From an uncultured Luminiphilus sp. (lineage in GTDB: Bacteria; Pseudomonadota; Gammaproteobacteria; Pseudomonadales; Halieaceae): 33,127 bases of DNA. The DNA is taken from NCBI GenBank assembly GCA_905182485.1, contig CAJJBO010000002.1, forward strand, positions 1 through 33,127. The letters are read 5' to 3'. Of this stretch, positions 1 to 20,427 are shown in pieces. The notes under the pieces were generated by a model that saw only the letters and a program-made list of their open reading frames with translations, did no database searches and was not told the origin of the DNA. A program made the position numbers and the translations under genes. Numbering within the stretch: the stretch's first letter is position 1; every line of letters begins with the position of its first letter.

Positions 1-195
1 GTAAGCGATATCGGATGCTGCGCAGTCGGGTAAAAAGTGGACGCCCTCTGTCAGGGTGTCGGTCGAAACGTGCAGCACCCAACCATCGGTAGTATCGATG
101 ATCGCCGCATCGTCACCAACACCCAGTAAGACGTGATCTGACGATCCCATGTCACCGAAGAACTGATGAATCAGGTCAAACTCAGTGAGCGCCAT
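1..195 (-). CDS. thiL: Thiamine-monophosphate kinase ThiL, N-terminal part (cut by window edge)
   Basis: This is the first 65 codons of ThiL, which phosphorylates thiamine monophosphate to thiamine diphosphate with ATP. The start reads MALTEFDLIHQFF, followed by VGDDAAI and STDTLTEGVHF, the N-terminal signatures of the family that help bind Mg-ATP. The ATG overlaps the nusB stop (TAATG), so the two genes are translationally coupled. A nusB-thiL order after the riboflavin genes is standard in gammaproteobacteria. The rest of the gene lies beyond position 1. Confidence 0.93.
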   Translation of the reverse strand, partial: MALTEFDLIHQFFGDMGSSDHVLLGVGDDAAIIDTTDGWVLHVSTDTLTEGVHFLPDCAASDIAY

Positions 196-641
196 TAGTC
201 CTCTTTGGCGCGTTCTACCGTGCGCAGTTCAGACGCGACCTTATCAAGAATGCCATTAATATAGCGGTGAGATTCGGTGGCGCCGAACTTCTTGGCTAAC
301 GACACCGCTTCATTGATCACCACTTTATAGGGGACATCAATGCGCTCCTTGAGTTCGAAAGTCCCCATGCGCAATAAGTTTCGCTCTATGGGATCAAGGT
401 CATCCAACGCACGGTCAAGCAACGGCGAAAACAGTGCCTCGAGTGACTCAACATCCTCCATCACACCGCGGAGTAGCGCTTGAAAATACTCGCCGTCGGT
501 ATGACGGAAATCATTATCGACTCGAAATTCAGCATCGATATCGACCAACGACGCATCGGAGAGGGTCCATTGGTAGAGCGCTTGCAAACCAAAGTGGCGC
601 GCTTTTCGTCGCTGTGCAGCAAGTGTATTCGGCTGCGACAT
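195..641 (-). CDS. nusB: Transcription antitermination protein NusB
   Basis: NusB (148 aa) pairs with NusE/S10 on boxA RNA in rRNA antitermination complexes. The sequence has the usual N-terminal ARHFGLQALYQW helix, the central LDPIERNLLRMGTFEL segment and the C-terminal VINEAVSLAKKFGA...YINGILDKVA block, and its length is typical. The ATG overlaps the TGA of ribH (ATGA), and the stop overlaps the thiL start. The frame is intact from end to end, in contrast to ribH just upstream. Confidence 0.97.
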   Translation of the reverse strand: MSQPNTLAAQRRKARHFGLQALYQWTLSDASLVDIDAEFRVDNDFRHTDGEYFQALLRGVMEDVESLEALFSPLLDRALDDLDPIERNLLRMGTFELKERIDVPYKVVINEAVSLAKKFGATESHRYINGILDKVASELRTVERAKED

Positions 642-1141
642 CAGCTGCGCAACGCGCTGAGCAGATTAACCATTTCGACTGCACTCATCGCCGCCTCAAC
701 ACCCTTATTCTCGGAATCGTCGCTCGAGCGAAAAACCGCCTGCTCAAGGGTATCCACCGTCAGCACACCAAAGGCAACGGGCTTCCCCGAGCGCAGTGCC
801 ACCTCGCCGAGGCTCATACTCACTCACCGGCAACATACTCGAAATGAGGCGTGCCGCCTCTGATCACCGCGCCAAGCGCAATCACCGCGTCGCAATCGGC
901 TCTCTCGGCCGCCACCCTGGCATGCCAAGGGCACCTCAAAAGCACCGGGCACCGTCACGACACGTACTTTGTCATCGGCGATACCCATCTGCTGCAGCGC
1001 TTGTTGGGCACCGGCAAGCAACCCATTCACAATGCCTTCGTTCCAGCGGGTAATCACAATGACATACCCCCCTTCGTTGCCCGAAATGCGCTCAGCGGCG
1101 TTGTCGATACCCTTAGCACCGCTCGATTGTGACTCGACCAT
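641..1141 (-). CDS. ribH: 6,7-dimethyl-8-ribityllumazine synthase RibH, two frameshifts
   Basis: RibH condenses the pyrimidinedione intermediate with dihydroxybutanone phosphate to give lumazine, the precursor of riboflavin. The N-terminal frame runs from ATG at 1141 through [15 protein letters not shown]. Homology then moves to a second frame ([31 protein letters not shown]) by a shift near 920, and to a third ([22 protein letters not shown]) by a shift near 820. Joined, they give a protein close to the family length (about 156 aa) with a slightly long N-terminus. Both shifts look like single-base errors, since all conserved motifs are present. The start lies 13 nt after the ribBA stop. Confidence 0.9.
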
Positions 1142-1154
1142 ATCCTATGACCTT

Positions 1155-2284
1155 TCAGTTATGCTCAGGACCACCGGGCGAGATAAACTCGACCACCTCT
1201 AATCCAAAACCCGCCAGCGCATTGTACTTGGTGGGTGAGGCCAGCAGCTTTATCTGGCCCACACCGAGATCTCTCAGTATCTGGGCGCCCAGCCCAATCT
1301 CATTGTACCCCTCCGCACCGGACGGTTGATCCACCTCGGTATCACCCAGCAATCGATCAATATCGTGCATCAGGTCTTCGGGTGATTCAGGTTTGCTGAG
1401 TAGCACCAGTACCCCAGAATTCGCCTCTGCGATGGCCGTCAAAACTGGCATCGAGAGACCAACTCGCCATTCCGTCGAGGGAAGTCCCGATCAAATCTCT
1501 CAACACAGCGGTGATGTGCACCCGCACCAGTGTTGGGGACGCGGCATCGATGACGCCCTTACTGAGCGCTAAATGCACTCGTCCATGGGTGGCATCTTGA
1601 TACGCTCGCATTTCAAAACGACCAAAGCGACTTTCCAAGATCCCTTGTCGCTGCACAGTAACGGTTTTTTGGTTCGCCAACCGATAGGTCACGAGGTCTG
1701 ATACACGGCCGACTACCAGCTCATGTCGGGCAGCAAATTCAGTCAGAAACGGAGCATCGGCGACCGCACCCTCAGCATCGAGTACCTCAGTGAACACGGC
1801 TGCAGGCGACAGCCCGGCTAACGTCGCCAGATCGATGGCTGCTTCAGCTGGCGCGGTGCGCGTGAGCACCCCTCCGGTCGCCGCCGCAATCGGAAAGATA
1901 TGTCCGGGCTGCACGAGATCGGCTGGGCGGGTCGACGGATCCACCGCAACACGCACCGTGCGAGCGCGATCGGCAGGCCGAAATACCCGTATCAATTCCT
2001 GTCGTCGCCTCGATCGATAACGTAAAGGGCGACAGCGATTCATCGCCTTCAACCATGAAGGGTAAATCGAGCTCTGCACAGCGGGCTCGCGTCATCGCCA
2101 GGCAGATCAGTCCCCGCGCCTGCCGCGCCATGAACGCAATATGATCAGCCTCACAGTGCTCCGCACTCACCACGACGAAACCCGTCATGCCACCTGCACT
2201 ATGCTCATTCAGTAACAGACAGGTGTGCCCATGACGCAGTGCACTCAGTACCTGATCGATACCAGCATAATCTTCGACCGACAC
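1155..2284 (-). CDS. ribBA: RibBA-type protein (DHBP synthase / GTP cyclohydrolase II-like) with both active sites altered; two frameshifts
   Basis: About 375 codons from a GTG start that overlaps the ribE stop (TAGTG). The fold signatures are clear: HIAFMARQARGLICLAMT, TGIS...ADRARTVRVAVD, QPGHIFPIAAATGGVL and EAAIDLATLAGL (DHBP synthase), then ILESRFGRFEM, LVRVH, LGAQILRDLGV and FGLEVVEFI (cyclohydrolase II-like). The DRENEGD loop of active DHBP synthases is replaced by LNEHSAGGMTG (residues 25-35), and the GHTEA histidine is a proline (TAPAEAA). The C-terminal domain lacks the zinc cysteines; a non-cyclohydrolase C-terminal domain is known in Pseudomonas-type RibB proteins, but loss of the DHBP site too is unusual. 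Shifts lie near 1995 and 1470, away from these sites. Catalysis is doubtful; a paralogue may supply it. Confidence 0.85.
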
Positions 2285-2895
2285 TAGGTGGCCTCCGCGC
2301 TGGCTTCGAACTGCATCAGGCGCTCTAAATAGCGTGCAATCACATCCACCTCTAAATTGACCGGGCTGCCTAAACGATATTCACTGAAGACCGTCTCCTC
2401 CCAAGTCTGCGGAATGATCGTGAGTTCAAAATGACTACCCTCCACCTGATTCACGGTCAGGCTGGTTCCGTCGACACAGATACTGCCCTTCATTGCGACA
2501 TAGCGCGCCAGCGTCTCTGGAGCCGCAATACGGACGCGCCAAAAGCGCGCATCCTCGATAATGCCGTCGACGTGGCCTACACCATCGACATGCCCACTCA
2601 CCAGATGGCCACCTAGTGGCGTACTGAGCGTCAACGAGGTCTCTAAATTGACCGAGTCGCCAATGCCTTTCGTGCCCAGTGTTGTCAAAGAAAGACTCTC
2701 CGGTGAGACATCGGCCCAATAGCCCTGTCCGGTCAGTTCTGTCACGGTGAGGCACACGCCGCTAGTGGCGATACTGTCGCCCAGCGAAACCCCCTCTAAC
2801 GGTAGCTTTCCGCTCTCGATGCACAAACGGATATCTTGCTCACCCGACTCAATGGCAGCAATATGGCCAACAGCCTGAATAATCCCTGTAAACAC
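2284..2895 (-). CDS. ribE: Riboflavin synthase alpha subunit RibE (RibC in some nomenclatures)
   Basis: Riboflavin synthase (203 aa) dismutates two lumazine molecules into riboflavin and the pyrimidinedione. The N-terminus MFTGIIQAVGHI is diagnostic. The two lumazine-binding barrels appear as GVSLGDSIATSGVCLTV and MKGSICVDGTSLTVNQV, and GGHLVSGHVDGVGHV lies between them. The start is GTG, preceded by AAGGAG at good spacing. The gene follows ribD after 29 nt and its TAG overlaps the GTG of ribBA. The frame is intact. Confidence 0.97.
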   Translation of the reverse strand: MFTGIIQAVGHIAAIESGEQDIRLCIESGKLPLEGVSLGDSIATSGVCLTVTELTGQGYWADVSPESLSLTTLGTKGIGDSVNLETSLTLSTPLGGHLVSGHVDGVGHVDGIIEDARFWRVRIAAPETLARYVAMKGSICVDGTSLTVNQVEGSHFELTIIPQTWEETVFSEYRLGSPVNLEVDVIARYLERLMQFEASAEAT

Positions 2896-2924: not shown

Positions 2925-4048
2925 CTAAGCGCTCAGCAACGCGGGGGCGGCCATCGGGGTCGCCATAATACGCAGATCTGTGCCGAAACGGGTCACCTCT
3001 TCAAGCTGAAATTTGGGGCTCTCTGCCAGCGTATCGATCGTAAAGCCCGCCATGGGCCGACCCGTATCGCCGAGCAGGCAGGGGGCCTGGTAGACCACGA
3101 GTCGATCTACCCATCCGCCCTCAATCAGAGCCCCCGATAACTGCGGGCCCGCCTCGATCAAAATATTGTTAAACGACTGCGTCCCAAGATAATGAACCCA
3201 GTCGTCCAGCACAATCCGTCCACCTTGATCCGCGGGTAACTGATGTTGCGTAATCGACACGTCCATCTCGATACCCGGTGCAGTGATGACGGTGGTCGGC
3301 GCCCCCTTCAGCACCCGCGCGTCGACCGGCGTGCGACCTTGCGAATCCAACACCATACGATGCGGCGGCGAGCGCAGTGCCCGCTCGCTTTCCCTCGCGA
3401 CTGAGCGAGGACTGATCAGGCCGCAGAGTGAGCTGGCAATCGTCGGCGAGGACCGTACCAATACCCGTCACAATGAGATCTGACTCTGCCCGCAACCGCT
3501 GCACATCCTGCCGGGAAGCCTCGCAAGTAATCCACTGACTTTCACCCGTTGCCATGGCCCACTCGACCGTCTAAAGACGCCGCAACCTTGAGCGTGACCT
3601 GCCCCCATCCCCGTCGCATACGGTGCAAGAATCCCGCTAGGTGCTGCTCGGCCTGATCCGCCAGCACACCCACCTCAACGGCAATACCCTCCGCCCTCAG
3701 CAAGGCGATGCCCTGGCCGGATACGCTGGGATTAGGGTCCTCGATCGCCACCACCACCCGCGTCACACCCGCCTCGATCAGGGCCTGTGCACAGGGGCCT
3801 GTGTGCCCCTGATGACTACAGGGTTCCAGCGTGACATAGGCGGTAGATTGTTGCGCGTTGACGGCACTTTGCAGTGCCATCACTTCTGCATGCGCCTGAC
3901 CCACCGGCTGAGTGTAGCCCGACCCGATCACCTCACCATCACGCGCTAAAACGCAGCCAACGGCGGGATTCGGGGCTGCCCAAAAACGGGCTTGGCGCCC
4001 CAGATCGATCGCGCGTTGCATCAACGCCCGATCAGCCGCCTCACTCAC
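2925..4048 (-). CDS. ribD: Bifunctional pyrimidine deaminase/reductase RibD, two frameshifts
   Basis: RibD deaminates and then reduces the GTP-derived pyrimidine in riboflavin synthesis. The N-terminal deaminase domain has the zinc site HAE (residues 53-55) and [11 protein letters not shown] (cysteines about 77 and 86). The reductase domain starts with [11 protein letters not shown] shift near 3556 moves the frame to ATGESQWIT...[11 protein letters not shown], and another between about 3370 and 3420 moves it to [21 protein letters not shown], which continues to the end ([15 protein letters not shown]). The total of about 374 codons equals the family length. The ATG overlaps the nrdR stop (ATGA). 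Confidence 0.93.
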
Positions 4049-4518
4049 AAATCTTCGAAAATGCCTGCCTCAGCCTCTAGCGATTCAATCGCATCACGGA
4101 ACTCAGCGAGGTCTTGAAAGCTACGATAGACCGACGCAAAACGAACATACGCCACATGATCCAGCACTTTGAGTGAGCTCATGACTTGCTCGCCCACCTT
4201 TAAGGATTGAATCTCACGTTCGCCAGTCGCGCGCAAACGATGTTTAATTTGGTCAATTTCCGCCTCAATACTCTCTACCGATACGGGGCGTTTTTCGAGG
4301 GCCCGCAGGAGCCCGGAACGCAGCTTTTCCTCATCGAAAGGCTCCCGACTGCCATCTTGCTTGATGACCCTCGGCAAGACCAGTTCAGCCACCTCGTAAG
4401 TCGTAAAGCGCTCAGCACAACTGAGACATTCTCGCCGGCGACGCACCTGAGCGCCCTCGGCGACTAATCGAGAATCAATCACTTTCGTCTCGTCGGTACT
4501 ACAAAAAGGACAGTGCAT
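4045..4518 (-). CDS. nrdR: Transcriptional repressor NrdR
   Basis: NrdR (157 aa) is the (d)ATP-sensing repressor of ribonucleotide reductase genes. It has a zinc ribbon with cysteines 3, 6, 31 and 34 (MHCPFC...CLSC) and a following ATP-cone ([20 protein letters not shown]). The C-terminal region [14 protein letters not shown] is typical. It heads the riboflavin operon, lies 34 nt downstream of glyA, and its stop overlaps the ribD start. No NrdR box or nrd gene is visible in this window. Confidence 0.97.
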
Positions 4519-20340: not shown

Positions 20341-20427
20341 GCCCAGGTGGTGAAATTGGTAGACACGCTAGCTTCAGGTGCTAGTGCTCGCAAGGGCGTG
20401 GAGGTTCAAGTCCTCTCCTGGGCACCA
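20341..20427 (+). tRNA. tRNA-Leu (anticodon CAG)
   Basis: An 87-nt tRNA with acceptor arms GCCCAGG and CCTGGGC, discriminator A and encoded CCA. The anticodon stem CTAGC/GCTAG encloses TTCAGGT, giving anticodon CAG, which reads CUG. A long variable arm (TGCTCGCAAGGGCG) and GGTTCAAGTCC in the T arm confirm the class II leucine type. In Pseudomonas a leucine tRNA also lies between purA and rnr (recalled). A T-rich run follows at 20438-20449. Confidence 0.97.

Follow-up and report, generated by a model that had tools for sequence, protein, structure and literature searches.

Complementary active-site losses in an operon-encoded RibBX-type protein of Luminiphilus and a second DHBP synthase suggest a heterodimeric enzyme

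The DNA analysed here (the window) is the whole of contig C2, 33,127 bases long, from an uncultured Luminiphilus genome of 2.17 Mb that was assembled in 42 contigs and is 69.6% complete. Its minus strand carries the gene order glyA-nrdR-ribD-ribE-ribBA-ribH-nusB-thiL (Table 1), and the same operon order was found in a family genome assembled as one contig (G006). The ribBA product, termed P, combines a DHBP-synthase domain with a GTP-cyclohydrolase-II-like second domain that lacks the zinc site, and its nearest named relatives are proteins of Luminiphilus and other Halieaceae, including the isolate HTCC2080. With a DHBP-synthase domain, an inactive cyclohydrolase-II-like domain and a place in a rib operon, P is a protein of the RibBX type. 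Flavin riboswitches were sought at the gene for P and at that for the second DHBP synthase described below (termed C), in seven sources of 130,133 bases with the window included, and none was found; the sole Rfam match was to a tRNA.

Table 1. Features of the window. Residue numbers, here and in the text, are those of the V. cholerae DHBP synthase.
Feature	Position	Strand	Remarks
nusB	195..641	-	
ribH (lumazine synthase)	644..1141	-	frame-broken in window and on contig C14
ribBA (P-type RibBX, operon copy)	1155..2284	-	GTG start at 2284; three frames in window
HITAVLRD at cyclohydrolase II zinc-cysteine position	1495..1518	-	from alignment with solved proteins
TAPAEAA at GHTEA metal site	1837..1857	-	H154 to P, T155 to A
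Loop 5, QPGHIFP	1891..1911	-	H137 present; likewise given in trans
Loop 4, TGISAADRA	1957..1990	-	T108 and D114 present; lines the partner subunit's active site; window frame break inside
Loop 1	2180..2212	-	LNEHSAGGMTG replaces DDEDRENEGD; cis residues R38, E39, E41 and D43 gone
ribE (riboflavin synthase)	2284..2895	-	start codon provisional
ribD	2925..4048	-	split over three frames in window
nrdR	4045..4518	-	
tRNA gene	20341-20424	+	Rfam RF00005

In the window, the three minus-strand frames of the P gene are separated by breaks near position 1976, inside loop 4, and near position 1441, about 55 bases past the HITAVLRD stretch. The loop 1, GHTEA-site and HITAVLRD stretches lie away from both breaks. 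The preliminary description of this locus, made from the window alone, placed none of these stretches at a frameshift; this is right, but the gene as a whole is not one frame in the window. Positions 1-2532 were found to overlap the end of contig C14, with 2527 of 2532 positions identical (99.8%) and three gap positions, and this overlap was left unmerged in the assembly. A true second copy of the operon was considered and rejected, C2 and C14 being overlapping contig ends. On C14, P is a single open frame of 375 amino acids with the same substitutions, and in the close relatives G012 and G023 the protein is 99% identical and again carries them. The substitutions are therefore real, since the two contigs and the close relatives agree on them. 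The frame breaks are best explained by sequence error close to the contig ends, because P reads open on C14 and RibH is broken on C14 as well.

The two breaks could also be taken as signs of pseudogene decay in the operon gene. However, P is open on C14 and in relatives, its dN/dS is about 0.05, and RibH and RibD are also broken in the window, so that this explanation is almost certainly wrong. Over 29 moderately diverged pairs among 41 Luminiphilus genomes, P had a median dN/dS of 0.05 and C one of 0.027, and both genes are under purifying selection in Luminiphilus. A decaying pseudogene or an assembly artefact was accordingly rejected, P being intact on C14, open in relatives and under purifying selection.

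The residue calls of the preliminary description (LNEHSAGGMTG, TAPAEAA and HITAVLRD, with no RCDCG) proved right, both on the window reading, in which an RCDCG-type zinc site is absent from the second domain of P, and on alignment with solved DHBP synthases. The zinc-binding cysteine motif of cyclohydrolase II is what we take to correspond to the HITAVLRD stretch of P. The DHBP-synthase fold was recognised by sequence in P of this genome and by structure in P of HTCC2080. An AlphaFold2 model of the latter (24 rows) had a mean pLDDT of 78.5 and matched RibBX 6mnz best; its pLDDT is low at 79-100, a stretch that takes in the greater part of loop 2 and the beginning of loop 4, and it is uninformative there. 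Against the NCBIfam model TIGR00506 (ribB, cut-off 177.45 bits), P of this genome scored 166.9, below the cut-off, and C scored 229.2, above it, while P of Halioglobus passed narrowly at 183.9 bits. The intact P copy scored 38 bits against the TIGR00505 cut-off of 206, and it is not a GTP cyclohydrolase II.

It had been proposed at the outset that the genome be searched for another ribB and ribA. One further DHBP synthase (PF00926) was found, on contig C16; it scored 273 bits, and the C14 reading of the operon copy scored 194. The GTP cyclohydrolase II (PF00925) match was RibA on contig C6. The C16 protein, C, has both DDEDRENEGD and RAGHTEA, and it stays in step with the V. cholerae numbering, at an offset of 12, over the anchors used. 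Judged by these motifs, C would seem to be the functional enzyme and P a dispensable extra. In loop 4, however, C reads PGVSAAQR, whereas P reads TGISAADR as ordinary enzymes do. At four Luminiphilus loci (L041, L045, L047 and L053) a thiolase gene lies immediately upstream of the gene for C and a nitroreductase gene on the far side, and none of the riboflavin genes sought was found in the 16-17 kb read. The vitamins given as needed by four cultured relatives, including L. syltensis, are biotin, thiamine and B12, riboflavin not being among them (PMC3679898). These relatives therefore probably make their own riboflavin, and DHBP synthesis is probably present in them.

What the altered residues would mean depends on how the enzyme is built. 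Each active site of V. cholerae DHBP synthase is described as shared between the monomers: one contributes loops 1, 2 and 3, its partner contributes loops 4 and 5, and T108 and D114 act jointly in the loop-4 lid; in the alignment of that study T108 is strictly conserved and position 114 is D, once E (PMC5228156). The same study cites earlier work on the M. jannaschii enzyme in which T108S is said to abolish activity and D114S to lower it, and simulation still showed Mg entering one monomer in the T108S form and likewise in the T108V form (PMC5228156). In E. coli RibB, whose D113 aligns with D114 in the numbering used here, the G108S and D113G changes are both reported to rescue a dxs defect, with 1-deoxyxylulose 5-phosphate (DXP) raised about 20-fold, and D113G was recovered in living cells (PMC3424233). 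Since D113G is viable, a change at this position need not abolish DHBP synthesis, and C may be weak and not dead.

Copies were counted across the genus, the family and the order. A DHBP-synthase match was present in 53 of 57 genomes of the genus and in 100 of 101 of the family, for which completeness of at least 85% was required of all but the window's own genome. Exactly two matches were found in 85 family genomes, one in 12, three in two and none in G036; the four matches of the window's own genome represent two genes, one of which is split and also appears twice because of the overlap. All seven one-contig family genomes (G006, G031, G086, G223, G357, G362 and G393) had a single C, a single P and no further match. 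In an order sample of 293 genomes, scores of at least 593 bits against the C profile were confined to Halieaceae (12/12) and a family labelled f9 (5/6), and the 13 next-ranking order genomes with fetched loci all read TGISAADRA.

The residues of each copy were then read in 112 distinct genomes of Halieaceae and f9, giving both proteins in 87, only C in 12 and only P in 13; in Halieaceae G171, G245, G306, G326, G359 and G364, with two matches each, only C was read. Rows G058 and G060 (duplicates of G016 and G391) and G363 (partial, without loop 4) were dropped, G062 was merged with G266, and G059, G061 and G062 were grouped with the Halieaceae without a family code. Named-record rows of type C or P repeat genomes already counted and were left out. 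In G079, two differing C copies and one P were seen (L247, L198 and L228), which may reflect contamination or a real second C.

C kept R38, E39, E41, D43, H154 and E175 in all 101 copies, and it also retains H137 and R115. By contrast, the loop-4 T108 and the D114 carboxylate that a DHBP synthase homodimer gives in trans were found in no C copy: position 108 is P in 100 and A in one, and position 114 is Q in 96 and G in five, the Q belonging to Halieaceae and the G to f9. The glycine at loop position 109 (E. coli G108) was kept in 100 of 101. The pattern in P is the reverse, with T108, G109, S111, D114 and H137 kept in 100/100 copies and R38 or D43 in none. C and P are defined by these residues; that none of the 201 copies had both sets whole and none lacked both is not built into the naming. 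Elsewhere P varies. H154 is lost in all 52 Luminiphilus copies, that of this genome (C14 reading) included, and kept in 47 of 48 copies outside the genus (42/43 in other Halieaceae and 5/5 in f9). Among the 43 other Halieaceae copies, E175 is D in every one and E41 is kept in 39, while over all P copies R151 is kept in 99/100 (one unread) and E156 in 99/100. On these readings the cis side of P has decayed to a varying degree, and T108 and D114 have been spared.

The lineage alignment that had been suggested earlier thus showed the substitutions to be conserved. Because R38, D43 and H154 are absent from 52/52 P copies of the genus, the gene is open in relatives and under purifying selection, and genes for both activities exist elsewhere in the genome, the proposal that P is a pseudoenzyme is well supported, and P alone is predicted to be without DHBP synthase activity. 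The accompanying suggestion, that paralogues make the flavin precursors, was too simple, as argued below.

It could be that P has acquired a function of its own, with a new ligand or new chemistry in the rebuilt loop and no relation to C. The Luminiphilus replacement loop does have conserved letters, with S29, G31 and T34 invariant in 12 sequences, although T34 is K in G086. The P proteins of other Halieaceae and of f9, however, have different loops without the Luminiphilus loop-1 motif, and the feature common to all is loop 4, known for its part in the active site of the partner. A separate function for P therefore seems improbable.

Still less probable is that C has turned to other chemistry, as in the DXP-forming G108S and D113G forms of E. 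coli RibB. C does differ at exactly D113, and at the loop-4 neighbour T107 (E. coli numbers), but the glycine G108 itself is kept in all but one C copy and an ordinary dxs gene lies near the rib operon in the two genomes examined. Moreover, no other DHBP synthase was found, yet the relatives seem to be riboflavin prototrophs.

A scan that did not depend on chosen residues was made on the 87 C/P pairs over the first 205 positions. A position was called constant if at least 97% identical in 99 single-type copies, and lost if kept in fewer than 10% of copies. Of the single-type copies, 39 came from genomes and 60 from named records, and they comprise 97 different sequences over residues 60-180; all were chosen for having both residue sets, which left out four Pseudomonas copies. 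The loop bounds used were 103-116 for loop 4 (which takes in D114), up to 43 for loop 1 and from 173 for loop 3, with 150-156 added for H154; the published bounds are 103-111, 34-41 and 175-185 (PMC5228156). Of 64 constant positions, C (89 copies) had lost four, E101, G105, T108 and D114, three of them in loop 4 and none in the cis loops. P (87 copies) had lost 13, counting losses in Luminiphilus, in other genomes or in both: E36, R38, D43 and T94 throughout, D34, N40, E41, H154, T155 and T202 in Luminiphilus, and E39, E175 and M183 outside it. Loops 1, 2 and 3 and the H154 site account for 12 of the 13, and loops 4 and 5 for none of them.

Copies from other lineages served as controls, and 99 of 103 kept both residue sets. 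The other four are extra RibBX proteins of Pseudomonas (G063-G066; L178, L182, L183 and L184), each beside one or two intact DHBP synthases, with a TDDE--HNGEGSL or TDDE--QDGEGAL loop, GHVEA, E175 changed to S or G, and an intact loop 4. Judged on sequence, the Pseudomonas extra is a degenerate paralogue in its own right, and its partners show no reduction; cis loss alone is therefore no proof of pairing. Nor do two copies alone bring loop-4 loss, since in 15 of 19 other-family genomes with at least two matches T108 was kept in 29/29 copies and position 114 was D (26) or E (3); in this set G148 counts as one copy, loop 1 is missing from the record of L426, and V stands at E175 in L421. Operon-slot single copies in other families retain the cis residues.

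In the tree, the single copies with which C clusters (support 100) belong to five genomes of families f4, f10, f11 and f40. These five and two more genomes of the same families have one match each (7/7), with loop 4 intact. No rib gene was seen beside the copy in any of the three surroundings read (G039, G045 and G046), and no DHBP synthase within 3.4 kb of RibH in the six of these seven genomes that have RibH. The C and P clades share a deep split, f9 against Halieaceae. A recent duplication with P and C as sisters was tried and rejected: P stands apart in the free tree, and constraining P with C was weakly rejected (p-AU 0.036) in a topology test on 59 rows with long branches. No firm claim is made about the history of P and C, and all C/P cases may trace to one ancestral event.

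RibH was sought in six genomes, namely the C-only G358, G379, G381, G402 and f9's G178, together with G036. There was no match in four, a weak one in G379, and one in another setting in G402, where the gene is flanked by what we take to be aldehyde-dehydrogenase-like and proB-like frames. Because RibH is missing, weak or elsewhere in these six genomes, their lack of P may be read as absence of the operon from the assembly. Three genomes with one high-scoring match each (G388, G390 and G392) were kept outside the RibH check, and G003 and G399 contain short fragments, possibly parts of the missing C. The RibH-family proteins L396 (G402) and L435 (G039) have no rib gene within the 3.4 kb read around them.

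What is observed, then, is the reciprocal partition of residues, its fixation in two families, selection acting on P and C alike, and unpaired copies that are intact in relatives. We consider it probable, though far from secure, that C and P form an obligate heterodimer with one composite active site, in which P is a dead subunit that completes C. P would pair with C and supply loop 4 (and loop 5) to its active site; C would supply loops 1-3 and the H154 site, that is, the metal- and substrate-binding residues. The parts lost by each would be provided by the other, and both copies would be retained together. Neither homodimer would work well, while C:P would have one complete composite site and one dead site. 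We infer that C and P pair, that the C homodimer has little or no activity and that the DHBP of the cell comes from the pair. The earlier assignment of precursor synthesis to paralogues fails in its simple form, the only other DHBP synthase found having itself lost T108 and D114; as C lacks the two residues that P keeps, it is argued to need P, not to replace it. Several points count against the heterodimer. H137 and R115 in C would be superfluous if C never gives loops, P retains R151, E156 and often H154 or E41 despite its cis decay, and the T108 and D114 mutant data stem from a distant enzyme. The entry of Mg in the simulated T108 mutants, the viability of E. coli D113G, the possible single origin of all cases and the Pseudomonas extras without cis residues weigh on the same side.

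A less likely alternative is that C functions as an ordinary homodimer whose lid is altered, and that P is a regulatory or scaffold pseudoenzyme lending no residues; it might, for example, activate C allosterically as a prozyme does, or belong to a complex of riboflavin enzymes. C keeps its cis residues and passes TIGR00506 (229 against 177 bits), modulation of RibB activity by the X domain has been reported for Shewanella RibBX (PMC10012899), and dead activating paralogues are described (PMC3663545). What this alternative leaves unexplained is the loss of T108 and D114, present in the 99 single-type copies, from 101/101 C copies and their retention in 100/100 of P. It is also conceivable, although we regard this as very unlikely, that the heterodimer is obligate and that pairing sets the chemistry, C with P making the riboflavin precursor and C alone, its loop 4 being altered where E. 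coli D113G is, another product such as DXP.

If the heterodimer of C and P is real, a vitamin enzyme that is normally homodimeric would, across a whole family of marine bacteria, have turned through reciprocal loss into one that works only as a heterodimer, giving a clean natural case of the copies of a symmetric enzyme becoming interdependent, with unpaired relatives as controls. The heterodimer reading predicts two-residue swaps that undo the dependence. It would also call for caution in annotation, as the family model accepts C as RibB, yet C may not work alone.

A literature search, with subscription journals mostly outside its coverage, returned no heterodimeric or reciprocally degenerate DHBP synthase and no RibBA pseudoenzyme. 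RibBX itself is known, and its X domain is described as without cyclohydrolase activity (PMC10012899). P shares with RibBX of A. baumannii (6mnz), Shewanella and Aeromonas the same two domains, the operon slot and the lost cyclohydrolase site, and 6mnz is its best match by both sequence and fold. The Aeromonas protein, however, is reported to keep the DHBP synthase residues and activity (PMC10012899), whereas P lacks the cis residues and C those of loop 4. The E. coli RibB G108S and D113G forms are changed at the same loop-4 position as C (PMC3424233), but they are laboratory suppressors, while the change in C is fixed in nature and accompanied by a partner, P, with the original loop.

The closest parallels in behaviour come from enzymes with dead paralogues. 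Human deoxyhypusine synthase is described as having active sites at monomer interfaces, and in trypanosomatids the complex of a dead paralogue, DHSp, with an impaired partner, DHSc, is reported to have about 3000-fold more activity (PMC3663545). DHSc/DHSp is an unrelated eukaryotic enzyme, whereas in C and P the loss is reciprocal and the complex is a proposed one. In Trypanosoma, the AdoMetDC prozyme is likewise a dead paralogue needed for activity (PMC5201418). That prozyme is said to relieve autoinhibition (PMC5201418) and not, as proposed here for P, to lend active-site residues.
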